DNA from: a virus
Strand: one strand, 5' to 3'
DNA length: 23,984 bases
IMG/VR virus record: IMGVR_UViG_3300006868_000111
Span: 1-23,984 of that record
Shown piece after piece: positions 1-22,939 of the stretch (positions within the stretch are counted from its first letter, which is position 1; every line of letters begins with the position of its first letter). Below the pieces are notes generated by a model, which made no database searches, had not been told where the DNA came from, and saw only the letters and a list, made by a program, of their open reading frames with translations. The position numbers and the translations under genes are program-made.

Positions 1-3000
1 CTTCCCCTTCCCCGCACCAGCCTCGGAGGCCGGCATGAAGAGTTTTTCGGTAATTGCGACATCGGCTTCATCGAAGATTACATAATTGTAATCGCCCTCG
101 CCTTTGGATCGGGATGAACCATCGAGGTATTTGATGCCTGGTATGCCGGCTTCTTTTAGGGCGGCGGAGCTTTTAGGCTTACTGCCTAATTTTCCCGCTA
201 GTTCGCCATAAATCACATCACCTTTTGCCTCAATGTCCTTCCAAAATTTTGGATGAGTTGCACCACTATCTCCTTTTCCTCGAAAAGTTGTGTTAAGTCC
301 GAACTTTTTAATTATAGGCTCAATCTTCTCCCTCACTCCCTTGGGTTGCTCGGACAGAGGCTTATCCCATAGCAGATACTCGTTCTCCTTGGGGGCGAGT
401 TCGACTTTGTAGAGGGAGCCAGGTTCAGTAAATTTTTTATTATGTTTAAGAGTTAATTCTCTGCTTTCTTTAGTTAAATCGTCTGCTTGTTTGAGTAACT
501 TTTTAGATTTTACTGAATCTTTATCTTTAAAATACTTCGATTTTATTCTCAAATCTGCAATTTCCTCTCGCATACCCTCAAGTCTTGCCTCTAGTTCTTT
601 TAGGCCCTTCATATCTTTCACATTTTGTCGATAATGCTCCGCCACTTCCTTTTTCCCCGCAAAGTAAAGCCCATGCCCATAGGCTTGCGCACCCTCGCCA
701 GTACCGATGGCCGATGTTCTGAATCTGCCGAAGGGTGCTCCTGGCTCGGCTGAAAAGGTGTGCGGTGTGCCGTGGTAGGCGGGAGTATAAAGTTTCTGAG
801 CCTCGGGTGACATTAAATTAATAACTCTTTGCTCGTTTACAGGTGATGCTTTTCCTGATCGTTCCGCATTAAATACTCGATCTAATCGGAATGTCTTTGT
901 GGCTGGACCAAATGGGTTATGCTTTTTATTAATAGCCGCCATATTATATCCGATTGCATCTAGCACTGGATTCATAGCGACTTGAGACTTGGTAATTCCA
1001 CCATGCAATGCATTTAGGAAGTTCAACTTCTTATTTGCGATGACAGGATCGGCATCTAGTCCTGTTCTGCCGTCAATGCCGTTGGCCGTATTCTGCCTAT
1101 AAAGTGAAAATGCGTCCCAAACGGCATTGTCGTTCCCAAATAATTCATCGTACATCCCGATTAATTCGTCAGGTAATTTCTTTGGCTGTCTTTCGCCCTT
1201 TAAAAATTGTAAGTTTTTCTGTATCTGATCGACATCGTGAAGGCGGACGAGGATGTTACCCTGTGCGGTAAGCTCAAATCCGTAAGGCATTGTTGTACGA
1301 ACTGCAAATGGTACGGCCTTGGGTTTTCTGCCCTGTGTGGCGGAATAGTATCCGATGAGCATACCCGCCCTTTCTCCATCTCCCTGTCTTAATGCTCGGG
1401 AGATTTCACGCAAGGCGGCTATTTGTCTTGGATGGATTGGTCCTTTAGCGAGTTGATCAATAACTGCCTCGCTGAGTGCTGGTAAGTCCTTGGCGAATGG
1501 CCTACCCTTGTCGTTGGTTTCTACATCAATTCCATTCTTCCGCAATACATCTGCGGCATGATCTCCTGCGGCCTGAGATACTTTATCAGCTTCACCCTTT
1601 GTCATGCGGATCGGATTGCCGAGTGTATCTTTTTCAATCTCTCCAGTTTGTGGATCGGTCTTATAGATTCCGCCCGTGTTTAATTTATCAACCACATTGG
1701 GGTTCTTCTGATCTTCAACTGTGTAAAGAGTTTCAAATTCGTCATCGATTGGTTTCTTACCTTCAGTCTTGCGAGTCTTTCCAGTATTCGGATCGGTAAA
1801 CTCAGAACCTTCAATCTCTGCCTTCTTTAATCCTCGGACATCTTTGTAATACTTTTCGATTAAATTCTGTAACTCGGGTATCTTTCGGAGTTTGCCCTTA
1901 AATAGATCAGTCGAAGTAATAAATTTGCCATCTGCATTGAGTGGCTGATTTAATTTAAGGAGAAAGTCACGAAGGAAAGACACTCCAGTTATTCCGTCAA
2001 TGGTTGCCTGTATGGCTTTGCCCGCTGGTCCTTGGTTGAGTGCTTTTTCCCGCTTACCGGTTAAAAGGAAATCCGCTCCCTGGTCGGCAAATATTTCTCT
2101 ACCTATTTTAGTTGGATCGGATTCGTAAGCGGCTACCGCTTCGGGGTCAAGAGATGCATCTTTGCGAAGTCGATCCATGTAGATGTCTCGCAGTCCTTCT
2201 ACATAATTGCCGTCTTTGTCAGTATACCCAATAAATTCATCAGTATAAATAATATTTCCATCTTTATCGTAGGATGCAAACTCTCCAGCAGTCTTAGTCT
2301 CCTTGTCCCCGAATAGTATTCGATTAACCATCGGAGTAAGTCCGTGTACTTCCATGAAGTGGGTAAGCTCATGTGCCAATGTTCCTTTTAAGTATCCCGA
2401 ACCATTTGGATTATAGGAAACCTCCATCGTTACAGGATTAAACCCACCCTCCCCTTTGGTTGTCTGTTTAAATACCACATCGGGATGCGATAAACTGTAT
2501 CCAGCAATTTGTGTGCGGATGTGAGCGGGCATGGCATCAAATTCCGCCTGTTCGCTTTTCGTTAAATGCTCACGATAATATTGAATATCTCCAATCTGTT
2601 TACTGTAGAGATCTCCTTTAGTCTTATAATTTTCGTACATCCCAGCACCCGCACCTAATGCGGTAAAGGGTGCGGACATGATTGCACCGGCAACCGCACC
2701 ACTCGGCTGACCCGCAGATGCGACAAAGCCAATTGTTGCGGGTAGACTTGCACCGGCGGCCATCCCTTTGCCGAATCTGCCAAGTGTTTCGAGTGGTGTA
2801 CCTAATCGCCCAACCACTCCGGCATTATCCAAGAAATTTGCAACCTTCTGAGTGGCATTTGATATGGTCGGGGCTTGCCCGATTTTCTCTCCACCTGGTC
2901 CAACTCTAAAAGGTTGTGCCGATGGGTTTACCTCTTTTGCTGATGCCCTACCCCCTTGAGCAATTGCATCTTTTGCTCTACTAACTAATCCCTCGGGACT

Positions 3001-4842
3001 CGGTTTCATTAGGATATTAAATTTATCCATCGTTGCCCCCGCCAGTCCTTGGTCAGGAGTTGGGAGCATAGAAAGTCTTCGGAAAAATGGCGTATGATCA
3101 CCTGTCCTTGCGAGGGTAAGTTCTGATCCGACTACTCGGGCATCTCTTGCAATGTTATCATATAAACTTAATGCTTTTGGCCCAATAAATGTTGCTAGTG
3201 CCGCCACAGCCGCACCGCCACCTAATGCATCTTGGTCAAACGAAAATCCAGCCGCTGAACCCAAACCCAATGCTGTACCACTTAAATTCTTAAAGTTTTT
3301 ATACCTTTGGCGGGCTGATTCGATAGTCACTTCTCTCCCAGCTTGCCGTTCAGCGTTTATTATATAGCGGATAGCGCTATTTTCGGTCATAGAAGATAAG
3401 AACCTACCAATCTTTGCGATAGTCGGTAATGATGCACCAACAGCCGCACCAACTGGTCCCGCTACTAATGCACCAACACTAGCACCGGCAATCTCAGGAT
3501 TGAGCTTGGCCGCAGTGTTCGCAACTCTTCGGAGTTTGCTCATCTTGTCGGTTGCTTTTGTTGCCTCCTGGACTAATCCCATGCCCATCTTTCCGGCATC
3601 GGTTGACTGGTCAAATGTTTCCATTGCCACCTTGCCGAGAGTTTCGGGTGAGGCTTTACCCATCAAACGAAGGTGAAGCGAATTGCTTCCATACTTCTGT
3701 AAAACCTTTTGCTGTTCTGCTAGTTCACTAGCCACCCGATCAGCCTGTTGGACTACTCTACCTCGGACTAGAGCATCTTCAGGCAATTTACTTAGTATAT
3801 TTTGATACTTTGTAAGTTCGATTGTTTTCTGTTGGACATCTTTTATCGTTTTAAGCATTCTGCCCTTCAACCCAATTCTCATTGGTGCGGTCACTCCTTT
3901 AGCTAGAGTGCCGCCAGCCGCATTAAGCGGATCTCCAACAACTTCAAAAGCTAATCCAATACCCTCACTTGGTACTTGGAAGTCCGAACGGAGATCCTGT
4001 TCAAGTTGGGAGTCGAATGTCATCGATTCGGGTTCTATTCCCACTGTTCCTTTTAATGCATCGACAGGATTATCCATCACCCATGCGGCAAACTCGGCGG
4101 CAGTTTCATACTCGTAATTTACCTTATCAAATCCTATTAAACTATTTACATAGCTAAGGACTTCTCCGTCATCCTCTTCGTCTAAAGTTAAATAATTTGA
4201 TAATGCGGCTCCGCCCCGAAGTAAAAACTCAGGTGTCTTCCATGCCCTAGCTGTACCCATTCCGACAGATGATTTTATATTGTCAGATGCGTAATCCATT
4301 GCGGCGGCTTTTACTCGGCCACGGGCATCTTTATTTTTTTGGTAAAATGGCATCCCTGTCTGCTTGAGTGCTTCGGAGATTGGGTCGAATCCTAAATCGC
4401 CTAAACTTTCTTGGTTATCTAGTAACCCAAAAAGTCTTTTTCCCGCTTCCCTAAATTGCTCTATATTTTCTGTTTTATCGTAGGATACTGCTTCATCATC
4501 TAACTGAAGGACTTTTGAGTATGGCGAGGTTAGTGGGTCAATTCGTGTACCTAAGTTTCTTACCATCCCCCCAAGGGTAGAAAGTAAACCAGGTGATTTC
4601 TCATCTTGAATTGTCTCAGGGTCATCATCCACATCTAGTATCGGACCGGACGGAGTATCAAAGAATCCATTCCGATAGGCGGATATTTTAGCTTCGTCTG
4701 ATAATTGCGATGCACCATATGGCCGCACCATCGTCTTAGCCGCTTCCCAAAAATGCTGATCGGATGGTTCCTCGCCATCCTTTAATTCTAGTATCCCTCG
4801 GACCTGTGGTAGCTCGGGGTGACTAATTTCGTACTTAGCCAT
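1..4842 (-). CDS. Giant polyvalent virion protein with HExxH peptidase and ADP-ribosyltransferase-like domains (partial)
   Basis: The frame is open from ATG at 4842 to the window edge, giving at least 1614 codons, so the C-terminus lies outside. The start is fixed by a TAATG overlap with the stop of the upstream gene. Three Gly/Ala-rich hydrophobic stretches lie near residues 443-475, 510-557 and 684-732 and could insert into a membrane. A metallopeptidase signature HELTH occupies residues 824-828 (H824, E825, H828), and E916 in REIFAD is a candidate third zinc ligand. Near the end, YHGTPHTF at 1356-1363, YGHGLYFA ending at A1395 and YVIFDEADVAI around F1590 match the ADP-ribosyltransferase module known from phage polyvalent proteins, with H1357 and Y1393 as likely H-Y catalytic positions. 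By position (last of the virion genes, after two helical proteins) it corresponds to the T7 gp16 class of ejected proteins. I infer that it is injected with DNA and modifies host targets. Domain identification is confident; the function is inferred. Confidence 0.85.
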   Translation of the reverse strand, partial: MAKYEISHPELPQVRGILELKDGEEPSDQHFWEAAKTMVRPYGASQLSDEAKISAYRNGFFDTPSGPILDVDDDPETIQDEKSPGLLSTLGGMVRNLGTRIDPLTSPYSKVLQLDDEAVSYDKTENIEQFREAGKRLFGLLDNQESLGDLGFDPISEALKQTGMPFYQKNKDARGRVKAAAMDYASDNIKSSVGMGTARAWKTPEFLLRGGAALSNYLTLDEEDDGEVLSYVNSLIGFDKVNYEYETAAEFAAWVMDNPVDALKGTVGIEPESMTFDSQLEQDLRSDFQVPSEGIGLAFEVVGDPLNAAGGTLAKGVTAPMRIGLKGRMLKTIKDVQQKTIELTKYQNILSKLPEDALVRGRVVQQADRVASELAEQQKVLQKYGSNSLHLRLMGKASPETLGKVAMETFDQSTDAGKMGMGLVQEATKATDKMSKLRRVANTAAKLNPEIAGASVGALVAGPVGAAVGASLPTIAKIGRFLSSMTENSAIRYIINAERQAGREVTIESARQRYKNFKNLSGTALGLGSAAGFSFDQDALGGGAAVAALATFIGPKALSLYDNIARDARVVGSELTLARTGDHTPFFRRLSMLPTPDQGLAGATMDKFNILMKPSPEGLVSRAKDAIAQGGRASAKEVNPSAQPFRVGPGGEKIGQAPTISNATQKVANFLDNAGVVGRLGTPLETLGRFGKGMAAGASLPATIGFVASAGQPSGAVAGAIMSAPFTALGAGAGMYENYKTKGDLYSKQIGDIQYYREHLTKSEQAEFDAMPAHIRTQIAGYSLSHPDVVFKQTTKGEGGFNPVTMEVSYNPNGSGYLKGTLAHELTHFMEVHGLTPMVNRILFGDKETKTAGEFASYDKDGNIIYTDEFIGYTDKDGNYVEGLRDIYMDRLRKDASLDPEAVAAYESDPTKIGREIFADQGADFLLTGKREKALNQGPAGKAIQATIDGITGVSFLRDFLLKLNQPLNADGKFITSTDLFKGKLRKIPELQNLIEKYYKDVRGLKKAEIEGSEFTDPNTGKTRKTEGKKPIDDEFETLYTVEDQKNPNVVDKLNTGGIYKTDPQTGEIEKDTLGNPIRMTKGEADKVSQAAGDHAADVLRKNGIDVETNDKGRPFAKDLPALSEAVIDQLAKGPIHPRQIAALREISRALRQGDGERAGMLIGYYSATQGRKPKAVPFAVRTTMPYGFELTAQGNILVRLHDVDQIQKNLQFLKGERQPKKLPDELIGMYDELFGNDNAVWDAFSLYRQNTANGIDGRTGLDADPVIANKKLNFLNALHGGITKSQVAMNPVLDAIGYNMAAINKKHNPFGPATKTFRLDRVFNAERSGKASPVNEQRVINLMSPEAQKLYTPAYHGTPHTFSAEPGAPFGRFRTSAIGTGEGAQAYGHGLYFAGKKEVAEHYRQNVKDMKGLKELEARLEGMREEIADLRIKSKYFKDKDSVKSKKLLKQADDLTKESRELTLKHNKKFTEPGSLYKVELAPKENEYLLWDKPLSEQPKGVREKIEPIIKKFGLNTTFRGKGDSGATHPKFWKDIEAKGDVIYGELAGKLGSKPKSSAALKEAGIPGIKYLDGSSRSKGEGDYNYVIFDEADVAITEKLFMPASEAGAGKGK

Positions 4843-6281
4843 TACTGAGCAATCGGTGTGAATATACCGCCACCTGGTAATGTCCTTGCTTGGGGTACAC
4901 TTGGGACTTGAGGGGGTTGCCCTGATCCCGTGCCTTGGTTATCAGGTTGATCAAATCCGTACATTATGCCGCCGAACTGAGTATATTTTCTCACCTCTTC
5001 GGGCGTAATCTCAAAGTTTTTTGCAAGTGATTTTACAGTATAATCAGTTTTTTCCATTAATACCTCTTGGGCGCGTTTTCTAAATACTGCGGTAGTCTCT
5101 TTTAGATACTTCTTTAGCTTAGGGTCTAAAGTTCCCGTCTTTTGTTGTTCTATAAACGATTGAAATCTATCTATAAATGCTTGAGAGCCGCCCATCCTTT
5201 TCAAATCATCCTCAGTAAGTATGCCTTGAGGCTGTACCATCCTAGCTAATTTTTCTTTCGCTACCGATGAAGATAAAGGGTTTCCTTCTGTCAAAAATGC
5301 CTCCAAATCGTCTGCGGCCTCCAAAACTGTCCTTGGTTCATCAAGATTTAATTTACTAAATCGAGTGTCTGCGGCTGATCTTAAATCTTTAGTCGGTATG
5401 ACTTTTTGCTTAGATACCGCTTGAGCCAATTGGTCTTTATTAAGATTTATACCTAGCTTTGTTGCTTCTGCGCTTACAGCATTTGCGGCATCAGACTCGC
5501 TAAAGTAGTAGGGCTGTAATGCTCCCACTCTTGATGAAAATTGATCTCCAAGCTTGCCGGTATTTTCTTTGGCTACTGCTTGCTCAGCCTTCTGCAAATC
5601 CATAAATCGATTCTTAGCAAGCACAGGATCAAGATTTTGCTCCCTTGCATACCTACCAAAATCAGATGAGCCAAGTTCTCCGCCCAATACTTTGGGAGCT
5701 TCATCCCTTTGAAATTCTAAAAATCGATTCCTTGCACCTTGGTCACCGCCTAAAGCAAATAGACCAGGCTGTGCTTGGTTATAATCTTCTAAGACTGCTG
5801 GGTCAGTTGTTTCAGCTAATAGGGCCTCCGCCATTCCCATCTCATTTTCTTCCGCCTCTCGAATCTTATCCTGTTGAGTACTGAATAATTCCTCTTTCAT
5901 ATCCATCTCACGATTCTTTTGGAATGCTTGATCGGAAGATTGTTTTTGTTGGGCGGCTAATTTTTGGGCTTCCATTTGAAGGCGGTTGCCTTCCATTTGC
6001 ATTTGAGCCTCGGTTGCCTTTTTCCGCTGATATTCTTTTTGCAGAAATGGATTCTTGGCGATTGCTTTGGCATCTTTTTCGGAGACTCCCTGGTTCATCA
6101 GATAGCCCGTCATTTCTTCTGCCCGTGCTTTTTTCTCCTGTCCCTCAATGAATCCTTTGGCGACCTGGTTAAGAGCATTACCGAATGCCATATTTGCATT
6201 CGCATTCGCCTGTCCCGCCCTTTCATAAGCCGAGGTGTCGATTCTCATTAAGCCCGCTTGAACTGTATCTCCTATTGCCAT
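4842..6281 (-). CDS. Internal virion (ejection)-type protein, helical and Gln/Ala-rich
   Basis: This 479-aa protein has no signal peptide or membrane segment that I can see. Residues about 45-160 are dominated by Lys, Glu, Gln, Met and Ala in long helix- and coiled-coil-like runs, and the rest also looks mostly helical. The C-terminal 40 residues are Pro/Gly/Gln-rich and probably disordered. The start has a clear upstream purine-rich site (AGAGGA, about 7 bases before ATG). Its stop overlaps the start of the giant polyvalent gene, and it lies 4 bases after the preceding 464-aa gene. In T7-like phages this position, between the tail genes and the largest virion protein, is held by internal core proteins (gp14, gp15) that are ejected into the host. 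I assign it to that class from position and composition only; no recognised family motif supports it. Confidence 0.6.
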   Translation of the reverse strand: MAIGDTVQAGLMRIDTSAYERAGQANANANMAFGNALNQVAKGFIEGQEKKARAEEMTGYLMNQGVSEKDAKAIAKNPFLQKEYQRKKATEAQMQMEGNRLQMEAQKLAAQQKQSSDQAFQKNREMDMKEELFSTQQDKIREAEENEMGMAEALLAETTDPAVLEDYNQAQPGLFALGGDQGARNRFLEFQRDEAPKVLGGELGSSDFGRYAREQNLDPVLAKNRFMDLQKAEQAVAKENTGKLGDQFSSRVGALQPYYFSESDAANAVSAEATKLGINLNKDQLAQAVSKQKVIPTKDLRSAADTRFSKLNLDEPRTVLEAADDLEAFLTEGNPLSSSVAKEKLARMVQPQGILTEDDLKRMGGSQAFIDRFQSFIEQQKTGTLDPKLKKYLKETTAVFRKRAQEVLMEKTDYTVKSLAKNFEITPEEVRKYTQFGGIMYGFDQPDNQGTGSGQPPQVPSVPQARTLPGGGIFTPIAQ

Positions 6282-6285
6282 AATT

Positions 6286-7680
6286 TTATCCTCTACTTAG
6301 GTAGCCACCGCCTAATGTTCCAATTGCTCCAAATAATCCCTGTGCCATTCCACTAGCCGCATTTTCTCGGGCGGCATAGTTCGCCGCATCGTAATTCGCC
6401 TTATTTGCGTATGCTTGCATACCAATATTAACACCAGCATCGGGATTAATCCGAGTGGCAGATTCCTGTGGCAATCCAAACAATGCGGACCTTTCCCCAA
6501 ATCCTTGGGCCGTATAATTCTGTCCGCCTCGAAGCATAGCCAATGGATCGACTGCTGTCTGCCTGTTTAATCCAGCGGCATAAGATCCGAGGCTTTGTGC
6601 TTGTTGGCGATTTTGCCCAATAATATCTCTTAAATAATCTTCTCGGCTCATGGCTTCAGCGGCAATGCCCGCATTATCCATTCCCCTACCCCGTGCGACT
6701 AATCCTTCACGGGCGGACTGAGTAGCTCGCCTTCTCATTTCGGGCGATAGGTCAGTCATTTGTGCCTCATTGAAAGCCTGTTCCGCAAGCTGATTAGCTT
6801 GGTTTGTACGAGCTTGCATGAGCGGATCGGATGCACGATAGGCTTGGTTCATGTCTGCCCCAAATCGACCTAGCATACTGATATCCGATCCAGCCTGTCT
6901 TTCCGCCATCCTCGCACCAAAGTCCTGTGACCGCATGGCATTTGATTCTGCCAGGCTGGCCATCGGATCGGCGGCTCGTTTAGCGAGTCCCATCTGTAAA
7001 TCTTGATACTGTGGGTCGTACTGTTGGCGAACTCCTAGAAGCTGGTCTTGAAGTCCCGAGTCGGCCATTGCTCCAACATAATCTCGGGCAGATTTTCCGA
7101 CATTAAATTCGGGCAAGGGAGGGGGAGCTTTTCCACCCCCAAAGAGTTTCTGTAAGAAAAATGAAGGAACTCCCGAAGAGTTGACCGGTTTACCCGCTCC
7201 ACCCGCATCTTTAAGCATTTGTGCCTCTTCTTGATTAATGTACGCTAATTCTTCACCTTCGGGAGCGGCAGTATTAAGAAGCATGGCCGCCTGTTTGAGC
7301 GGATCTTCGGGGGCATATGAAACCACTCCATCTTTTGTCATTTTTCCTGATGCACCGGACAGCATTAAAAGTTCACGCTCAATGGGATTAATGTAAGCTA
7401 AAGATTCGCCCGATGGGGATTGTTCGGCTAAATATTTTATTACCTGGTCCTGTGAAATGTCGGAATTAAAATGGTCGGGGTCGGTATCCGGAAAGCTAGT
7501 AGGGTTTCCACGCCTCAACATCATTACATGGGTATCCCCATAGGTTGGGTGAAGTGGATCTTTTGCCTTTAAAACTTGAGTCGGGGAAATTTGGGCATCT
7601 CGAACGCCTTGAAGTCTTTTTTCTGCCTCTTCTGCTATTTCCTCTTTTGAAGGGCCGATTAATTTTTTTATGAATTCCAT
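6286..7680 (-). CDS. Internal virion-type protein with duplicated N-terminal motif
   Basis: This 464-aa protein follows the collar-domain fibre by 1 base and precedes the next internal virion-type gene by 4 bases. The first 175 residues contain an imperfect tandem duplication: residues about 88-122 and 138-174 share the pattern P-x-GE-x-LAYIN-x2-E-x3-ML-x5-GK followed by GV and an aromatic. The region from about 185 onward is Ala/Gln/Met/Arg-rich and helical, with many 'ARMAERQAG'-like segments. The last 20 residues are a Gly/Leu-rich tail that could contact a membrane. It probably belongs to the core or ejection proteins of a short-tailed phage, like T7 gp14, but no catalytic motif is visible. 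The call rests on gene order, helical composition and the hydrophobic C-terminus. Confidence 0.6.
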   Translation of the reverse strand: MEFIKKLIGPSKEEIAEEAEKRLQGVRDAQISPTQVLKAKDPLHPTYGDTHVMMLRRGNPTSFPDTDPDHFNSDISQDQVIKYLAEQSPSGESLAYINPIERELLMLSGASGKMTKDGVVSYAPEDPLKQAAMLLNTAAPEGEELAYINQEEAQMLKDAGGAGKPVNSSGVPSFFLQKLFGGGKAPPPLPEFNVGKSARDYVGAMADSGLQDQLLGVRQQYDPQYQDLQMGLAKRAADPMASLAESNAMRSQDFGARMAERQAGSDISMLGRFGADMNQAYRASDPLMQARTNQANQLAEQAFNEAQMTDLSPEMRRRATQSAREGLVARGRGMDNAGIAAEAMSREDYLRDIIGQNRQQAQSLGSYAAGLNRQTAVDPLAMLRGGQNYTAQGFGERSALFGLPQESATRINPDAGVNIGMQAYANKANYDAANYAARENAASGMAQGLFGAIGTLGGGYLSRG

Positions 7681-7681
7681 A

Positions 7682-8422
7682 TTAAGTCTTTATTATGTAA
7701 TTTAAAATGATGGTGGGCTGGACATTGTTGTGTGGGCTGGCCGAAGAAGTATTAATGCCATTTGTACTAGAACTGAATGGTGCAGTTATTCCGCCAGTTC
7801 CACCATCAACAGCGTGTGAAATAGTGGGAGTCGAGTTTGTGTGTTCCATTTCTGAGGAAGTCAGAGTATGCGTTTCTGTACCGCCTGAACCCCCTAAAAC
7901 ATCTCCATCGACTCCGCCAGTTAGCCCGGTTAATCGATTGGCGGAAGAACCCCCCATATCATCTTGTCCGGCAATTACTCGACCACGAAGATCGGGGATA
8001 TTAAAAGTCGTTGAACCATCCCCCGCTCCGTAAGTTGTACCGACTAAAGCGAATAAAGCTGAATAAGTTGTCCTTGAAATTGCCGCACCATCACAGAGTA
8101 AGAACCCTGTCGGAGCGGATGCCCCAGCATATGGCATGAGCGAACCGCTCGGCATAAGTACACTAACTGCACCCGCATCGAGTTTTGCGGCTGTTACCGC
8201 TCCGTCCTGAATCTTTGCAGTAATTACTGCATCTGTTGCAAGTTGAGTCGATGTGATTCCGGCATCTTTTACTTTTAATTTACTCGAACCTAAAGTAAGG
8301 GTCGAATTATCAGTCGTATCTGCCGCCGAAGTAAAAGTCGCTTGACCAATTATGTCGTTTAATTTCTGAGCGGTTACTTGGTCACCACTCGCAAAACTTT
8401 GTCCTGTTGATAATACTGCCAT
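7682..8422 (-). CDS. Tail fibre with phage tail-collar domain
   Basis: This 246-aa protein carries the phage tail-collar signature in residues about 90-150: MPSGSLMPYAG, then APTGFLLCDG, then TTFNIPDLRGRV. The C-terminus contains HTLTSSEM and ends NVQPTIILNYIIKT, the typical ending of short tail-fibre and microcyst-type collar proteins. The N-terminal 85 residues have repeated polar segments (TSTQLATDAVI, then AVTAAKLDAGAV) that look like a trimeric fibre shaft. An AGGAG ribosome-binding site precedes the ATG by about 7 bases. It follows the large nozzle-like gene by 10 bases. The likely role is a receptor-contacting fibre or fibre tip on the short tail. Domain identity is clear; the target is unknown. 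Confidence 0.85.
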   Translation of the reverse strand: MAVLSTGQSFASGDQVTAQKLNDIIGQATFTSAADTTDNSTLTLGSSKLKVKDAGITSTQLATDAVITAKIQDGAVTAAKLDAGAVSVLMPSGSLMPYAGASAPTGFLLCDGAAISRTTYSALFALVGTTYGAGDGSTTFNIPDLRGRVIAGQDDMGGSSANRLTGLTGGVDGDVLGGSGGTETHTLTSSEMEHTNSTPTISHAVDGGTGGITAPFSSSTNGINTSSASPHNNVQPTIILNYIIKT

Positions 8423-8432
8423 AATTTTTCTC

Positions 8433-10874
8433 CTATGAAATAGATGTCGTGCTTCTGTCGGTTACTCGGGCATCGATTTTAACTGCCCTTAAAAATGGTC
8501 TGCCCGCTGTGGGCTTAAAGTCTGTCTGTATTCCAAATCCTCTTTTCCTTACGCCCAATCGTATGGAGGAATCTTCGCTTGCCGGTAATGTGCTACCGAG
8601 TAAAGTTGAGATTGATGTGGCCGATGTTGTGGAGTCGGGATCTTCAGTTATAAAACTAATATCACCATCGGAAAGCCCTTCGTCTGAGCTTTTAATATGT
8701 AGCTCGGATCGGGCGAACATTTTTCTATCAGCAGTATCCGCATCATATTGGCGAGTTGTGCATTGAGAAACTACTGCAATGGTCTCGGGGATCGCCTGGC
8801 CGGCAGCCATGCTTACCACATCCCCACCTTCCGCTCCATCGACTTTGTGGATGCCTCCTTCTTCAGTAGTCAGATATAAAGCATTCTGCGAACCTTCCTT
8901 CCCGACTATTAATTCTCTAATTGCAAACTCGGTTGAGTTAACTGTGTCAATGCTTTCAAAGCCTCCATTAAGGAAGCTGTACACGATTATAGTGTTAAGC
9001 TTAGTCGCATCTCCGCTCCCAGGAACAATGTCTAATGGCAAGGCGATCCAATATTTATTATCAAAATAAACTGCACAGCTTAGATGAACATAGTCTTGGT
9101 TTATTCGGTCGATAAATGGCTGGATGGTTTCGGAAATCGGCATCCCTGTGCCTCGTAAATTATACTCATCAATGAAAGTAACCGCGTAAAGCCCTTGGTC
9201 CGATAAAAACATTATTTGATTAGCCACTTGGACAACAGACTTTCTTGCCGAGCATCCAATTTCAGTAGTTACCACATTAGTGGAAACATCGGCAAGAGAT
9301 CCGCTTATCCCACTCATCAGATGGATCGATTTTCGATTAAATACTACGAGAGAATCTTTTGTAAATGGAGTAAGCTGGACCAAGTAATCACTTTGTCCGG
9401 CGGACGGTCTGAACTGATTCCCGATTACATCCACAGTATCGAAATCCATTATATCAGATGCTACGATTTCATCTCTAATTCCTCGGTCCGTTGGATTGGT
9501 TTCCGAGGTGTACCAGTAAGGCATCCAAAGTCTTCGTTCGTGAACCACTCCCCAAGGTGCGGCGGGTTGGTGGATGTAGCCTTTTCCGACTGCAAGAGGT
9601 TTATTGACTGTTAAAGTCTTGGAATCTCCGAGGGATACATTTGCGACTTCTAAGTTAAATGTAAATTGATTGGCTGTAGGCGCTCCCGTAACTCTGACTT
9701 TTTGGTCAGCGAACAGGTCGAATGGACTAGTCCCCGACTGAATAGTTAAGTCATCCCCAGCAGATAGTCCGTGAGAAGTGATATCCATCGTTACCACTCC
9801 ATCCTGTGCCACTGCGGCAGTGTCGGTAAGATAAACCGGTGCGGTATAAGTCCCATTTGCCACTTTCGTGAAGTCTAAGAAAAATTCCACCTGTGCACCG
9901 GAAACATTAAAAGTTGTAGTTTGGCTGGTTGCCATTTTGACGGTGAACTGATTTGTCGATGCAGTCTCAATCTGATAGCAGTCATTTGGATTATTGGTCC
10001 AATTCCCTAGACCAGTTAAAGTAACATAATCATTAGCAGAGCGGCCATGTGCCGTGGCGTTTACCGTTATCGTCTGCCCACTTTGGGAAGCCGATGTGAT
10101 ATCCACTCGCTGAACCTCGGGGCTGGCCTCGAGAGTTGTTTGACGAGTACGAAAGATATACATCTTCCCGAGTCCCTGAGTCATTTGTACCGGTCCATCA
10201 ACAGACTCTCCTCCCGCTTCATACCGACACTTAAAAAGTGCAGAATCTTTCAGACGCAGAATGATACAAGTTGTATCTGTGGCGGTAAAAATATAATCGT
10301 CATTATTCGATGTGGCATCGGAAAAGACTGCCGATCCGAATACTTCGTTTACCCCGTTGTCGTTTAGGGTAAAATTTAAAGTTGTACCGATGGATGTGCC
10401 AGTCGATACGACTGAAGTATTTCCCACATTCTCACCATTAATCGTAAAAGTAGTATCCGCTCCGCTGTTGGCGAAAGTTAAAGTCTTAGTCGTAAAATTG
10501 ACCGATGCTAAAGTGCGAGTTCCATCGACCGATGCATCGAGGTCAGCAATATGAAAATCTTCTCCAGGTATGAAAGAAAGTGAAGGTGTGGTGCTTAATA
10601 TTAAGGTTACCACATTGCTCTGCCTTTGAGCCGACAAAATTATGTAAGGCAATCGGATCGCATTTGTCCCCGATGTAATCGATCCAAACAGAGTGGATAA
10701 CCCTTTGCGAGTTTGCCAAGTTCCGTCCTTATTCATCCGACCATTTTTCGACAATGCAACTTCACCGGGCTTTAGCTGGTTAGGCCGCAATCGGGCATTC
10801 ATCCGCAAAAAGAAAGTATCCCCTTCTGTCACGAATGGATCGTCTAGTTTGCCGTATGAACGATATCTGCTCAT
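8433..10874 (-). CDS. Large beta-rich tail protein, probably tail nozzle/hub
   Basis: This 813-aa protein has few helices and many short beta-type segments. The N-terminal ELALSKNGRMNKDG-like stretch (PGEVALSKNGRMNKDGTWQ, residues 36-54) resembles the start of large tail proteins of short-tailed phages. Residues about 88-135, 267-314 and 361-409 look like repeated small beta modules; the last two share AHGRS/SHGLS followed by D-x-V/L-T-L/I and later NQFTV/NQFTF. The C-terminal half has repeated propeller-like blades (for example LVQLTPFTKDSLVVFN, IMFLSDQGLYAV, ALYLTTEEGGIHKV). Size, beta-propeller look and place after the adaptor suggest the tubular tail or nozzle component, equivalent in role to T7 gp12. 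Its start overlaps the preceding stop as ATGA. The function is inferred from position and fold type. Confidence 0.65.
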   Translation of the reverse strand: MSRYRSYGKLDDPFVTEGDTFFLRMNARLRPNQLKPGEVALSKNGRMNKDGTWQTRKGLSTLFGSITSGTNAIRLPYIILSAQRQSNVVTLILSTTPSLSFIPGEDFHIADLDASVDGTRTLASVNFTTKTLTFANSGADTTFTINGENVGNTSVVSTGTSIGTTLNFTLNDNGVNEVFGSAVFSDATSNNDDYIFTATDTTCIILRLKDSALFKCRYEAGGESVDGPVQMTQGLGKMYIFRTRQTTLEASPEVQRVDITSASQSGQTITVNATAHGRSANDYVTLTGLGNWTNNPNDCYQIETASTNQFTVKMATSQTTTFNVSGAQVEFFLDFTKVANGTYTAPVYLTDTAAVAQDGVVTMDITSHGLSAGDDLTIQSGTSPFDLFADQKVRVTGAPTANQFTFNLEVANVSLGDSKTLTVNKPLAVGKGYIHQPAAPWGVVHERRLWMPYWYTSETNPTDRGIRDEIVASDIMDFDTVDVIGNQFRPSAGQSDYLVQLTPFTKDSLVVFNRKSIHLMSGISGSLADVSTNVVTTEIGCSARKSVVQVANQIMFLSDQGLYAVTFIDEYNLRGTGMPISETIQPFIDRINQDYVHLSCAVYFDNKYWIALPLDIVPGSGDATKLNTIIVYSFLNGGFESIDTVNSTEFAIRELIVGKEGSQNALYLTTEEGGIHKVDGAEGGDVVSMAAGQAIPETIAVVSQCTTRQYDADTADRKMFARSELHIKSSDEGLSDGDISFITEDPDSTTSATSISTLLGSTLPASEDSSIRLGVRKRGFGIQTDFKPTAGRPFLRAVKIDARVTDRSTTSIS

Positions 10875-12307: not shown

Positions 12308-13576
12308 TTAAGGTACATCGGTTGAGAAGGTTGGGCCGTTTATAAGTATTGCATTAGCTCTAGAATTTCCACTCATATCATATATGTCTGTTCCACTACC
12401 TGCTTCAGTTCCGTCTCCCATGCGATACCAAACAAGTGGAGATAAAGATGTTATATCTCCTGGAGTGCCACTATTATATATAGTAGATATATTCCCACTA
12501 GTTAAAGCTGAGTCCCAAGTAGCGAGTTCATCGACCAAGCAATCACTAAATCCGTTCCATCTACCGCCTCCTCCAGCCCATATGCTAAATCTTGTGGCAT
12601 ATCCATTAGATGTGTCGGTGCTTGTTACATTTGCTGCCCCGTTAACATAAGTTTTTACATCAGTCCCATCCCAAGTCCAAGCGATGTGATACCAAACACC
12701 TGTGTTAAAAGTTCCTGTGAAATGACTTTGAGTTCCAGATAACCAAAGGTAAAAACCAGTTGTTGACATATGTATGCCTGAGTTTCCTCCCGCAAAGCTT
12801 GCGTTGAATGTACCATCATTATTATATTTACCGATACCAAACACTGCATCATTAATCGCAAATGTATTAACTTTAACCCAAGCACTTTGCGATACAGGGG
12901 TTGTAGTTGCCCATGTTGCACCGCCTAACCTGTCGATAGGTAATGAACCCATGTAGTCATTTGTACCATCAAAGCTATTAGAATAAGTATTAGAAAAAAC
13001 AGATAGATAATCAATATCCCCTGTTAAACTATAAACATTAGTTCCTGTTGGTACTAAATCCACGACCCCATGTTGCCCGATACTTGCGTTTGGTGTGTTT
13101 GAACCGCTTGTATATCCATTTACAGTTGTGCCACTTGTCAAAAATCTGACTTGACCAGCACCACCTTGAACCACTCGGCAATTAAATCCACTCGTAAGTC
13201 CCGATGGAACTGTAATGTCAATTCGACTACTTGAGTTGCAAAATATTACTTTTCCATTCTCGGCATTTGTTAAAGTATAATTAGCTGTTTTAGTAACTAT
13301 ATTATAAAAAGCTGTTGCATAGTCTGTACTTGCAGTAGTAGCTGCTGTGCCTAACCCTAAATTCGTCCTACTTGTTTCGGCATTCGCAACATCGGATAAA
13401 TTATTGGATGCGAGTAGATCGCCCTGTGGAGCGGCCGCTACCAGGTTCGCGACTGTTACCTTTTTAGTTGTACCTTGTGCTGAACCTGTGGTGTCCGAGA
13501 TATCCGTGATTGGGATGATATCGCCGACTGCTGGAGTTGCCCCAAGTGCTGTTAATGCTGAAATTTTCTTATTCAT
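12308..13576 (-). CDS. Fibre or appendage protein with C-terminal LamG (concanavalin A-like) domain
   Basis: This 422-aa protein has a fibre-like N-terminus (MNKKISALTALGATPAVGDI) and a middle part (about residues 90-185) of alternating beta strands typical of fibre shafts. Residues about 199-375 form a LamG/concanavalin A-like lectin domain: SFDGTNDYM at 201-209, SAWVKV at 231-236, WYHIAWTWDGTDVKTYVNG at 295-313 and LVDELATWDSAL at 348-359. This domain class binds carbohydrates. The gene lies between small head-associated genes and the membrane cassette, away from the collar-domain fibre, so it may be a head fibre or a second receptor-binding appendage. The assembly site on the virion is unknown. 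Confidence 0.75.
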   Translation of the reverse strand: MNKKISALTALGATPAVGDIIPITDISDTTGSAQGTTKKVTVANLVAAAPQGDLLASNNLSDVANAETSRTNLGLGTAATTASTDYATAFYNIVTKTANYTLTNAENGKVIFCNSSSRIDITVPSGLTSGFNCRVVQGGAGQVRFLTSGTTVNGYTSGSNTPNASIGQHGVVDLVPTGTNVYSLTGDIDYLSVFSNTYSNSFDGTNDYMGSLPIDRLGGATWATTTPVSQSAWVKVNTFAINDAVFGIGKYNNDGTFNASFAGGNSGIHMSTTGFYLWLSGTQSHFTGTFNTGVWYHIAWTWDGTDVKTYVNGAANVTSTDTSNGYATRFSIWAGGGGRWNGFSDCLVDELATWDSALTSGNISTIYNSGTPGDITSLSPLVWYRMGDGTEAGSGTDIYDMSGNSRANAILINGPTFSTDVP

Positions 13577-14992: not shown

Positions 14993-16024
14993 TTAAACTA
15001 TTGAACCCAAAGCGCGTGGATTTCCTACCCTCAAAGTCAACATTGCCTCAGAGAATGCGCGTTTTCCGGCACCGTTGTCGGGGAGATCCTGAATTGTAAT
15101 ACCTTCCAAGAACTTTAATGAAACAGTGTCATCACTTGGAATAATATATCCACGATCTGTGTTTACTGTACCCTCTGCGGTGTCAGTCCCACTAGGTGAT
15201 CCATCCACACGACCCAAAAATAAATCAGGGATGATATTAATTTGGCCGTAATCGGAAATGTAGGTCAGAATTGAACGAACTAAGACCTTACCACTAACAT
15301 CCTGGTCAAAACTAAAGTTTCCGTTAGTTGTAGTTGAACGGGTATAGTCTGTGATCTTGTTCATAACCGCGGGACCGGCAAAAAGATTCAGATTTCCTTT
15401 GGAACCGGAAGCAGTGTAAACAGCTTGAAGGAGTCCACGGAAAGCGGATTCTGTCAAGGATGCAAGGCTTACACGAGAACCACTTACTGCACGAAATGCT
15501 TGTTTAGCACTTGTATCGAAAGTATTTCCGGTCGCTGTCGGATCTGACCAAATCCCGAGCCCACAGAGCTTCGCCGCGGTAGAACTTGATCCAACATTTT
15601 GATCATTACCCGATCCGATTGCTGTCTCAATTGAACGCTTTAACTGCAAAAGACTTTTTGCTTTGGAAGCGGCGAAAAGAGACCCACCAGGAGCGACATC
15701 AATCATTTCTGACTGCCGACTGGTTGCAAACGCATCGCGGATTGTCTGTACCCTATTCCCAAGCCTAGCTCTTGAGTCAATTAAGTTTTGAAAGTTTGAT
15801 CCACCGGCAGAAAGTGTTAAATCAACACCATCAATTGTTCCTCCGATTTCGGGGTTTGCGAGTGAATCGACAAGCCACTCATTCAGAGTTGCCTTGGGTG
15901 CGGCAGACTGTGAAAGCGTAGAATATAGGGGCGTTTCGGTAGGCTCCACAGTACGGAGGACATTTTCTAGGTTGGTTTGTGCGCCTTTGTCGGCGGTCAC
16001 ATTATATGAAGTGCTTAAAGCCAT
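14993..16024 (-). CDS. Major capsid protein (HK97-fold, DUF5309-like)
   Basis: This 343-aa protein has the size and layout of the SU10/DUF5309 type of HK97-fold capsid proteins: an N-terminal arm (VEPTETPLYSTL, residues 27-37), the LNEWLVDSL segment, and RLGNRVQTIRDAFATSRQ at 87-104, the place of the family's conserved 'GN..QI' strand. The ATG is preceded by AAGGAAT. It follows the scaffold gene by about 36 bases and is followed by a strong terminator, both usual for the most abundant virion protein. It assembles on the portal with the scaffold. No separate protease is seen in the window. Family assignment is from memory of sequence pattern and gene order. Confidence 0.8.
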   Translation of the reverse strand: MALSTSYNVTADKGAQTNLENVLRTVEPTETPLYSTLSQSAAPKATLNEWLVDSLANPEIGGTIDGVDLTLSAGGSNFQNLIDSRARLGNRVQTIRDAFATSRQSEMIDVAPGGSLFAASKAKSLLQLKRSIETAIGSGNDQNVGSSSTAAKLCGLGIWSDPTATGNTFDTSAKQAFRAVSGSRVSLASLTESAFRGLLQAVYTASGSKGNLNLFAGPAVMNKITDYTRSTTTNGNFSFDQDVSGKVLVRSILTYISDYGQINIIPDLFLGRVDGSPSGTDTAEGTVNTDRGYIIPSDDTVSLKFLEGITIQDLPDNGAGKRAFSEAMLTLRVGNPRALGSIV

Positions 16025-17171: not shown

Positions 17172-17627
17172 TCAGGCAGTTTTAAATATTTCCCACGCTT
17201 CCCGATATTTCTCGTGCTTGGCTTTGGAATTGGGGTTGTGCGGGTATACCGCAACTGTTAATGCTCCATCAATTGCGAGGCATGGAATTAAATACCAGGC
17301 ATCAATGTCAGCGCAGAATATTGCCACCACATCGACTTTTGTGCAGTCCAACGGATATTTGACAACTCGGCCTGTGGTCGTTGAAAATTTATACCTAGCA
17401 CATCCGTTTTTTCTCTCCGAAACACTCGATTTTTCAGAACCCTTGATTTGAACATTAAATTTCCGACCCGCCGAATTAACGACAATGCAGTCTACCGGTA
17501 AATGATCCCCAAGGGGGCAAAAAACTTCTAGGCCGTTTTTTAAAGCTTCAGTAAAAAAAATCTGCTCATAGATGTAGCCGTTACGCTTCGTGTTCTTCGT
17601 CATCGTCGAGGTCGATATCGCATTCAA
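17172..17627 (-). CDS. PD-(D/E)XK-type endonuclease
   Basis: This protein of up to 151 aa has the PD-(D/E)XK pattern, with E21 in the first helix (YIYEQIFFTEAL), D46 in LPVDCIVV and Q60-x-K62 in FNVQIKG, followed by VDVVAIFCADIDAWYLIP, a layout of group-I-intron-like and phage PD-(D/E)XK endonucleases. Two starts are possible: TTG at 17627, which has a GAGGTGAT site upstream, or ATG at 17603 (then 143 aa). Both overlap the preceding small gene. It lies between small genes and the scaffold, so it may be a free-standing homing-type nuclease or have a packaging or host-DNA role. No repeats flank it. Nuclease fold is fairly clear; its target is unknown. Confidence 0.7.
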   Translation of the reverse strand: MNAISTSTMTKNTKRNGYIYEQIFFTEALKNGLEVFCPLGDHLPVDCIVVNSAGRKFNVQIKGSEKSSVSERKNGCARYKFSTTTGRVVKYPLDCTKVDVVAIFCADIDAWYLIPCLAIDGALTVAVYPHNPNSKAKHEKYREAWEIFKTA

Positions 17628-21334: not shown

Positions 21335-22939
21335 TTAATACCCTCCTCCACCTGTTGAAATTAATTCGTCCTCGCTGAAATACTCGAAATTACCGATGCA
21401 AAAATACCTGGCATTATCTACGAAATCTTTGCTCGGACATTTTAGCCCAGCACTTGGTTGGTAAGCTTGCATACAACTTATTAGATTTTGACACTCATCG
21501 CTGAACATCAATTTAGGCTTATTATCCAAATCCATCTCTTTATCCCGATCCCATGCGAGTAAATTATTAATAGCCTGTAATCCCGTCTCGATGTCTAACG
21601 CTTCGGCCGGCTGAACAATAATATCTTCGTCCATTAAATCATCGATTATGTTGGAAGATCCTTCCGACTTCTGATAGCTCGCCGCTCCCAAACGAGGGTC
21701 GATTATGCGGATGACCTCACTATCCCCACATACCTTCTCCATTCTCCTAATCTCATCGGCATAATCCGCCAGGCCGTACCCGTTCGGTTGGGCAGCCTCG
21801 CCGGCACTTAGCTTGTCCTTAGTTAAGTCAATCCATCCTCCCCATGTGTCGAAGTCAGGAAACTCCTTAACCGCCCAGGCGACTCCATGTGGATCGATTG
21901 CAAAGAGGACCATTGTCCAAGGTTTTGCTCCCGCCGGATCGATGGATAATACCCAGTTGGCATCCGAGAAATCGGGCAGTTTGTCCGATGTTACGAAGTT
22001 TTTATCGGTCAAATTAGGGAAAATAGCCCTAGACTGCCTCACAGGCACTCCATACGCCCGACATAAAATAGTTTCCCGCTTCTCGCCTTCCAATTGATTC
22101 TTCATCGCCGCCCAGCCGCCAAAGGGATTCGCCGCTGTATGGAAATAAACCACAGAACTGGCTTTGCGGATGGGCTGTTGAACGAGGGGGACTTCTTCGC
22201 CGTCTAATAGGTCCGCTTTCGTTGACTCTATGGTGCGGGCACCGGTGAGCATCGATTTTACGACAGAGTTCCATCCGTCAACGGCGGTGAAGCTGATAAT
22301 TCCCTTGGAATTGCGGGTAACTGTCCTAAAACGAAGGGTATTTACCCATGACATCGGTACTAATTCGTCCGCCCAATATCCGATATTATGTGTTCCATTG
22401 ACTGGATCTTGCGGTGAGCCAATCTCTCCTCCCTCAATGGTGCTGATATCTTGGGACCAGTTACGGAAAATACACTGACTTCCGTTCGGCAAAGTGAACT
22501 TTTGCGAGGTAAATCCATTTTTAAGCGACCACATTACATATCCTATCTTACCTCTCCCCAACGACTTAAACTCTTTTGGGAGAGCATCGTAAACGAGCTT
22601 CTGTTGGAATTGCACAGAATTTGCCGATGTTTCTGTAAGACACCATATAATCGTGCCGGGGTTTTCAACGAGGGATTGAACTACCCGCTTGGCCGCCCAA
22701 AAACTCTTTCCAGCCCTATTCCCTCCCATGACCAAGATCTCGGCATGAGTCTTCAGTTCCTTATCCGCTAACTTCCAGGTATCAAGTTCAAAGCCATGCC
22801 GGTATGGATCATCCTTCTCGAGCTTGATCGCTTCCTCACGCTTTTCCCAATATGCGAGGATTGATTCGGGGGACATGGACAGCATCTCTGATTTTGTCAG
22901 AGGCGGTAAGGCGGGGTGCGGTGTCCAGGTAAGTGGCAT
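21335..22939 (-). CDS. terL: Terminase large subunit
   Basis: This 534-aa protein has the two domains of a packaging motor. The ATPase part shows Walker A GGNRAGKS at residues 72-79 and a Walker B-like IGYWADE at 186-192 (D191, E192). The nuclease part shows acidic positions D334 in LSIDPAGAKP, D414 in IIDPR and the D505/D508 region of KDFVDNARY, in the RNase H-fold order. It cuts concatemers and drives DNA into the prohead through the portal. It is the first gene of the minus-strand cassette; no good Shine-Dalgarno is seen before the ATG, and a roughly 290-base intergenic region lies upstream. Confidence 0.92.
   Translation of the reverse strand: MPLTWTPHPALPPLTKSEMLSMSPESILAYWEKREEAIKLEKDDPYRHGFELDTWKLADKELKTHAEILVMGGNRAGKSFWAAKRVVQSLVENPGTIIWCLTETSANSVQFQQKLVYDALPKEFKSLGRGKIGYVMWSLKNGFTSQKFTLPNGSQCIFRNWSQDISTIEGGEIGSPQDPVNGTHNIGYWADELVPMSWVNTLRFRTVTRNSKGIISFTAVDGWNSVVKSMLTGARTIESTKADLLDGEEVPLVQQPIRKASSVVYFHTAANPFGGWAAMKNQLEGEKRETILCRAYGVPVRQSRAIFPNLTDKNFVTSDKLPDFSDANWVLSIDPAGAKPWTMVLFAIDPHGVAWAVKEFPDFDTWGGWIDLTKDKLSAGEAAQPNGYGLADYADEIRRMEKVCGDSEVIRIIDPRLGAASYQKSEGSSNIIDDLMDEDIIVQPAEALDIETGLQAINNLLAWDRDKEMDLDNKPKLMFSDECQNLISCMQAYQPSAGLKCPSKDFVDNARYFCIGNFEYFSEDELISTGGGGY

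Follow-up and report, generated by a model that had tools for sequence, protein, structure and literature searches.

A giant polyvalent phage protein with a zincin-type core and an array of exchangeable cassettes opened by a recurring peptide

The locus and its giant gene

The window, by which we mean the whole stretch of DNA analyzed, is a viral record 23,984 bases long. Its minus strand carries a single frame that begins with an ATG at 4842 and runs free of stops to base 1, giving 1614 codons and staying open at the contig edge. The gene is grouped with virion genes and, following those for the nozzle-like and collar proteins, is the last and largest of the set, as listed here from the contig edge inward.

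1..4842, minus strand: giant polyvalent protein of ejection type, represented by residues 1-1614, with the C-terminus open
4842..6281, minus strand: neighbor of 479 aa, candidate second ejection-locus protein by position, no family match
6286..7680, minus strand: neighbor of 464 aa, candidate first ejection-locus protein by position, no family match
7682..8422, minus strand: tail collar/fiber protein
8433..10874, minus strand: head closure Hc3/nozzle-like protein
14993..16024, minus strand: major head protein
21335..22939, minus strand: terminase large subunit

The virus is a marine bacterial one, and its giant protein is probably fired into the host with the DNA. A first-pass annotation made from the sequence had placed the protein in the position of a T7 gp16-like ejected protein. 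This holds for the gene order, which is that of Phage C75C1 (OQ984151), T7 gp16, and podophage ejection loci, with a terminase, a portal-sized gene, head, nozzle, and collar genes, and finally a run of large genes that the giant one closes. It does not extend to the content of the protein, for which Pfam searches up to an E-value of 10 returned no domain, including no lytic transglycosylase, and which differs from known ejection proteins in having no sequence similarity to them. Whole-protein searches of Pfam, NCBIfam, and PDB sequences likewise gave no useful match, and a PHROG match named "endolysin" (phrog_873, residues 1473-1602) was rejected because that annotation belongs to a large multidomain family. 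A channel role is unsupported because hydropathy analysis found at most one membrane-like segment.

The length of the complete protein can be judged from a second contig, L011, whose protein is 99.8% identical over residues 951-1614 and extends 212 residues further before a stop, which would make the full-length window protein about 1826 aa. The extra residues comprise a second ADP-ribosyltransferase (ART) cassette and a conserved tail of 46 aa ending in SERFR; the first-pass annotation had suggested further effector domains past the edge, and the second ART is one.

Several other genes were noted along the way. The counterpart of the 464-aa window protein in Phage C75C1 (L069; OQ984151 CDS0001) is 2769 aa long with internal repeats. 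Between the head and tail genes of the window, a protein of 422 aa (12308-13576, minus strand) has a LamG/concanavalin-like C-terminal half, with PHROG hits to families of unknown nature and to a single virion structural protein. A frame of 151 aa (17172-17627, minus strand) contains VDCIVVN...VQIKGS and resembles a PD-(D/E)XK or Holliday-junction nuclease core.

A constant core with a metallopeptidase active site

We compared the protein with 13 relatives from viral contigs, retrieved with patterns independent of the punctuation motif described below. Read from its sequence, the protein consists of a constant core, with an intact zincin active site and a conserved folded spacer, and a polymorphic punctuated array.

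2626..4842, minus strand: N-terminal core, residues 1-739, constant in the family and without a known domain
2053..2625, minus strand: zincin-type metallopeptidase region, residues 740-930
2359..2373, minus strand: HELTH, residues 824-828, with H824, E825, and H828 invariant
2179..2181, minus strand: Y888, the sole other invariant residue of the peptidase alignment
2095..2097, minus strand: E916, candidate third metal ligand, an invariant residue that the model places in its second conserved helix
850..2052, minus strand: spacer joining peptidase to array, residues 931-1331, conserved, folded, and modeled confidently
781..795, minus strand: first punctuation peptide, KLYTP, residues 1350-1354, where the constant core ends
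46..780, minus strand: cassette 1, ART-like domain (H1357, Y1393, E1592), residues 1355-1599
31..45, minus strand: second punctuation peptide, KLFMP, residues 1600-1604
1..30, minus strand: start of cassette 2, ASEAGAGKGK, which in L011 leads into a domain of the ART-PolyVal family and then the conserved tail of 46 aa

The first-pass annotation had described HELTH at 824-828, E916, and a YHGT/YGHGLYFA/YVIFDEADV set in a frame of at least 1614 codons; all of these positions match, and the strand, which it left unstated, is minus. It had also named H824, E825, and H828 as residues whose conservation would bear on a peptidase assignment. They are invariant in an alignment of 14 peptidase regions, drawn from relatives of the window protein and from phages with very different cores, in which identity falls as low as 14% and the invariant columns are otherwise only Y888 and E916. 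Among the sequences collected, the HExxH appears as HEVGH, HELGH, HEIGH, HEIAH, HESMH, HEFTH, and HEIIH.

A model covering residues 740-1349, for which 20 sequences were used, has a mean pLDDT of 77. It places HExxH within one helix and E916 within the long helix that comes next, so that both the conserved active site and a confident model now speak for the HExxH peptidase. Confidence drops under 50 at residue 1331 and stays there through the last modeled residue, just ahead of the first boundary peptide, and this stretch is probably flexible. Foldseek comparison of the peptidase model against BFVD gave eight matches at E ≤ 0.001 (best E 1.4e-10), several of them named polyvalent or ART-PolyVal-like. 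Against the PDB, the matches were to the zincins ArdC, selecase, lethal factor, and IrrE, all non-significant, and Peptidase_M48 matched weakly in 5 of the 20 sequences (best 0.017). We regard the region as a zincin by its active site and architecture, the fold itself being likely.

In one core cluster (L055 and L175), EELGH replaces HELGH, with loss of the first His metal ligand; the Glu ligand and the LFMP punctuation are kept. The peptidase of these two proteins is possibly inactivated, judging by the substitution.

ADP-ribosyltransferase-like cassettes

In the window frame, YHGT lies at residues 1356-1359, YGHGLYFA at 1388-1395, and YVIFDEADV at 1587-1595. H1357 and Y1393, the two residues singled out by the first-pass annotation, are invariant across 19 ART copies, as are D1591 and E1592, and two inner stretches are highly variable. 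Pfam ART-PolyVal matches 6 of the 19 copies (best E 1.7e-5). The evidence from sequence supports cassette 1 as an ART of the Tox-ART-HYD2 type, which combines H, Y, and an acidic residue. AlphaFold gave no usable model of this domain (pLDDT 55), and we make no claim about its structure for that reason; the earlier ART-like assignment is thus sustained by the sequence but not by the structure model.

In L003, L008, and L012, cassette 2 matches Pfam ART-PolyVal above the cut-off. The second ART of L011 keeps the His and has Phe in place of Tyr, and that of L003 has Arg in place of His; with such substitutions, some members may have a degenerate second ART. When profiles of the two ART types were compared, alignment was limited to the GLYFA/FFS block.

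A polymorphic array opened by a recurring peptide

Beyond residue 1354, the relatives diverge completely. The array of the window virus, completed from L011, consists of an ART, an ART-PolyVal-type domain, and the tail. Cutting all arrays at the motif and clustering the pieces gave 38 groups, some of which are fragments or chance matches. The contents include ART, ART-PolyVal, and GNAT domains (Acetyltransf_7 above the Pfam cut-off), an ASCH-like cassette just below the cut-off, and another cassette with a ParB C-terminal match. L007, L008, and L013 have different arrays on cores that share 99.5-99.8% identity. Conversely, a cassette of 486 aa is 100% identical between L038 and L051, despite an identity of 25% between the two cores, and a second one of 495 aa is likewise common to L066 and L079. 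At the array end, the 46-aa C-terminal tail is usually conserved, and the downstream gene is conserved whatever the array (six different arrays), so there is no cassette-specific immunity gene.

The cassettes are opened by an LFMP-like peptide, for which 52 boundaries with non-redundant flanks give the consensus (D/N)(K/R)L(F/Y)MPA. Positions outside the search pattern are also conserved, with D/N at -2 in 30 of the 52, K/R at -1 in 34, and A at +1 in 27. The motif was hit 135 times in 35,961 array residues and 6 times in 53,645 core residues, making the arrays ~33 times denser; in a previous count, for which the pattern differed somewhat, 90 hits fell on the C-terminal side of HExxH and none in the 27,237 residues on its N-terminal side, with about 3 expected from shuffling. 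Copies are spaced from 15 to several hundred residues apart, and some arrays have a single copy. The ten other large proteins of the window lack the motif, bar one IFTP at the end of the 479-aa neighbor. In many relatives, the C-terminal tail repeats the theme in the form NYMP ... RFMAPAASAGA ... ERFR.

Many of the loci were retrieved with the pattern [DE]KLFMPA, so one motif copy in each is there by selection and the copies are not independent. Retrieval based on the peptidase is a cleaner test of the motif, and 9 of the 11 new contigs found by peptidase alignment carry it; one other ends before the array, and the last (L097) is without it. A scan for DKLFMPA restricted to CTN leucine codons hit 47 contigs. 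Five of the new hits fell in short chance frames and were rejected, as was L193, a chance match in a terminase-like protein.

Peptide signal or DNA junction

In most of ten cassette pairs, DNA identity leaps from random to near 100% at or beside the motif codons, so that exchanges are bounded at the motif. Homology also ends within 5 residues of the motif in 21% of cases, versus 4% at random. Contig ends lie within 60 residues of a motif in 14 of 23 cases, against 41% expected, an excess too weak to serve as evidence of repeat-induced assembly breaks. The motif has 36 DNA spellings among the 52 non-redundant copies, with Pro codons at background, and the variants LYTP, RFMP, NYMP, and LYMP retain an aromatic-Met/Thr-Pro amid unrelated flanks. 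Both observations argue for selection on the peptide. The comparison thus favors a motif selected as a peptide, with recombination tolerated where the peptide stays intact.

Among the ART-PolyVal proteins encoded in bacterial genomes, the ART is usually succeeded by a DIRF/NILH-like peptide. Clear repeats occur in only a few of these proteins, such as three DIRFAPR in L106 and three IYHQ in L149, and for this reason we do not claim that punctuation is general. L106, from a metagenome-assembled genome titled Nitrospirales, has an open frame of 3851 residues with HELGH at 623 and one DIRFAPR directly after the ART; DIRFAPR is possibly punctuation spelled differently.

Relation to known systems

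By its sequence, the window protein is a polyvalent protein, a known class characterized in the sections consulted of Iyer et al. 2017 (PMC5512222) by at least two domains of disparate activity in one polypeptide and by a virion gene neighborhood. The family shares with that class a zincin metallopeptidase, HYD2-type ARTs, GNAT and ParB-like domains, several unlike enzymatic domains, and the virion neighborhood. It differs in its punctuated array, in which every cassette begins with the recurring peptide and cassettes change quickly on cores that are nearly identical. The sections of PMC5512222 that were covered, together with a term search, yielded no mention of a boundary motif, and a limited open-access collection gave no relevant mention of an LFMP-type motif, the word matches examined being unrelated abbreviations. 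The array beyond residue 1354, with interchangeable cassettes each opened by the consensus peptide, is to that extent new, in that we did not find it described.

Similar to the MuF polymorphic toxins of temperate phages (PMC5576092), the family joins a constant N-terminus to a variable C-terminal effector. ARTs and peptidases are among the MuF effectors, and delivery with the phage DNA has been proposed for them (PMC5576092). The window family, in contrast, has several cassettes per protein and no immunity gene specific to a cassette. It also has no MuF domain, as judged by Pfam searches of the window protein and of four relatives that are full-length. The virion RNA polymerase of coliphage N4 (PMC12633501, PMC5512222) is likewise giant and ejected, and in it an HExxH domain precedes a large conserved region. 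It differs from the window protein, in which Pfam and PHROG gave no match to an RNA polymerase module. It enters the virion unprocessed (PMC5512222), and the texts consulted mention no punctuated array in it. In Phage C75C1, the first 1098 aa of the equivalently placed protein contain neither HExxH nor LFMP.

The same ART type (IGTGEGAQAYG.GLYFA ... IPGIKY) occurs in two other viral settings. Gp5 of Sulfitobacter phage phiGT1 has it beside head genes, but as a solo ART with punctuation absent. The archaeal virus vir555 has it in a giant ART-peptidase protein after an internal virion protein, but with another domain order and again with punctuation absent. Among relatives that have been cultured or sequenced, Limnohabitans phage DC33 and ctEw122 have polyvalent proteins with an ART and a related cassette and no punctuation. 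The DC33 record (PQ492659) bears a taxonomy line of Inoviridae, which are filamentous, yet has a 39 kb genome and a 3125-aa polyvalent protein; its taxonomy looks wrong.

Possible roles of the peptidase and the punctuation

We propose that effectors are released by the embedded peptidase at the punctuation peptides of a virion-borne polyvalent polyprotein, a reading to which we give slightly less than an even chance. The giant protein would be made late, packaged beside the portal, and ejected with the DNA, and the metallopeptidase would cut it at the punctuation peptides, either in the virion or on arrival. The freed cassettes would then act separately, and in the window virus, we infer that two ARTs would modify host proteins by ADP-ribosylation, in the manner of T4 Alt. 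As each cassette would carry its own start signal, phages could swap cassettes by recombination with processing undisturbed, and the effector set would for that reason turn over much faster than the core. Self-processing by such peptidases has been proposed for polyvalent proteins since 2017, without a defined cut site in the sections consulted (PMC5512222), and the punctuation family gives a specific candidate. Against self-processing stand L055 and L175, which keep the motif with an EELGH peptidase, the N4 polymerase with its unprocessed packaging, and the unpunctuated proteins of DC33 and ctEw122.

The punctuation might instead be a cassette junction and flexible linker only, where recombination between folded domains is tolerated and the peptide travels along with the cassettes, the peptidase acting on host proteins or in assembly. 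We consider this unlikely, though well within reason. A role purely in recombination would also agree with the DNA breakpoints at the motif and with the excess of homology ends near it, and the motif in L055 and L175 persists without an intact peptidase. However, an inert linker or DNA anchor needs no fixed residues, and neither the many spellings of the motif nor the aromatic-Met/Thr-Pro kept by its variants would then be expected. It is improbable, in our estimate, that the motif serves as a recognition or docking element, for portal-tail threading or a virion partner, through which each cassette is delivered with no proteolysis. The echo of the motif in the C-terminal tail and its confinement to the giant protein within the window would suit such a role, but no partner is known, and the irregular spacing and the single-copy arrays speak against it. 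Host proteolysis at the start of infection, alongside ADP-ribosylation, was the role suggested by the first-pass annotation. The intact active site is consistent with it, and the consulted text of Iyer et al. (PMC5512222) keeps the possibility open. The peptidase, however, sits in the constant core, outside the polymorphic part where host-facing effectors lie, which favors a house-keeping role; we judge self-processing likelier and a peptidase effector aimed at the host quite improbable.

On a broader scale, marine podophages may share a market of effector cassettes in which (D/N)(K/R)L(F/Y)MPA is a standard processing peptide, cut by the core metallopeptidase, and any cassette fits any core. 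We offer this tentatively, thinking it rather more apt to fail than to hold. If true, phages would possess a viral polyprotein system that frees and delivers whichever cassette is joined to whichever core. The exchange of bounded cassettes on near-identical cores would be a possible renewal route for injected effectors, much like that of polymorphic toxins. The motif also offers a simple handle for effector discovery, as each segment between motifs is a candidate host-targeting or anti-defense domain, and several of these segments match no known family.

Two cassettes without a Pfam match were noted by their motifs. That of L016, from residue 1600, contains EGHCFEW, YHVW, and YDAE and resembles a papain-like Cys-His-Asp arrangement. 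That of L189, from residue 1524, carries two HxT-type motifs, MHLTLVSRH and YHITLANKT, and by eye resembles a 2H phosphoesterase, a possible counter to nucleotide-signaling defenses.
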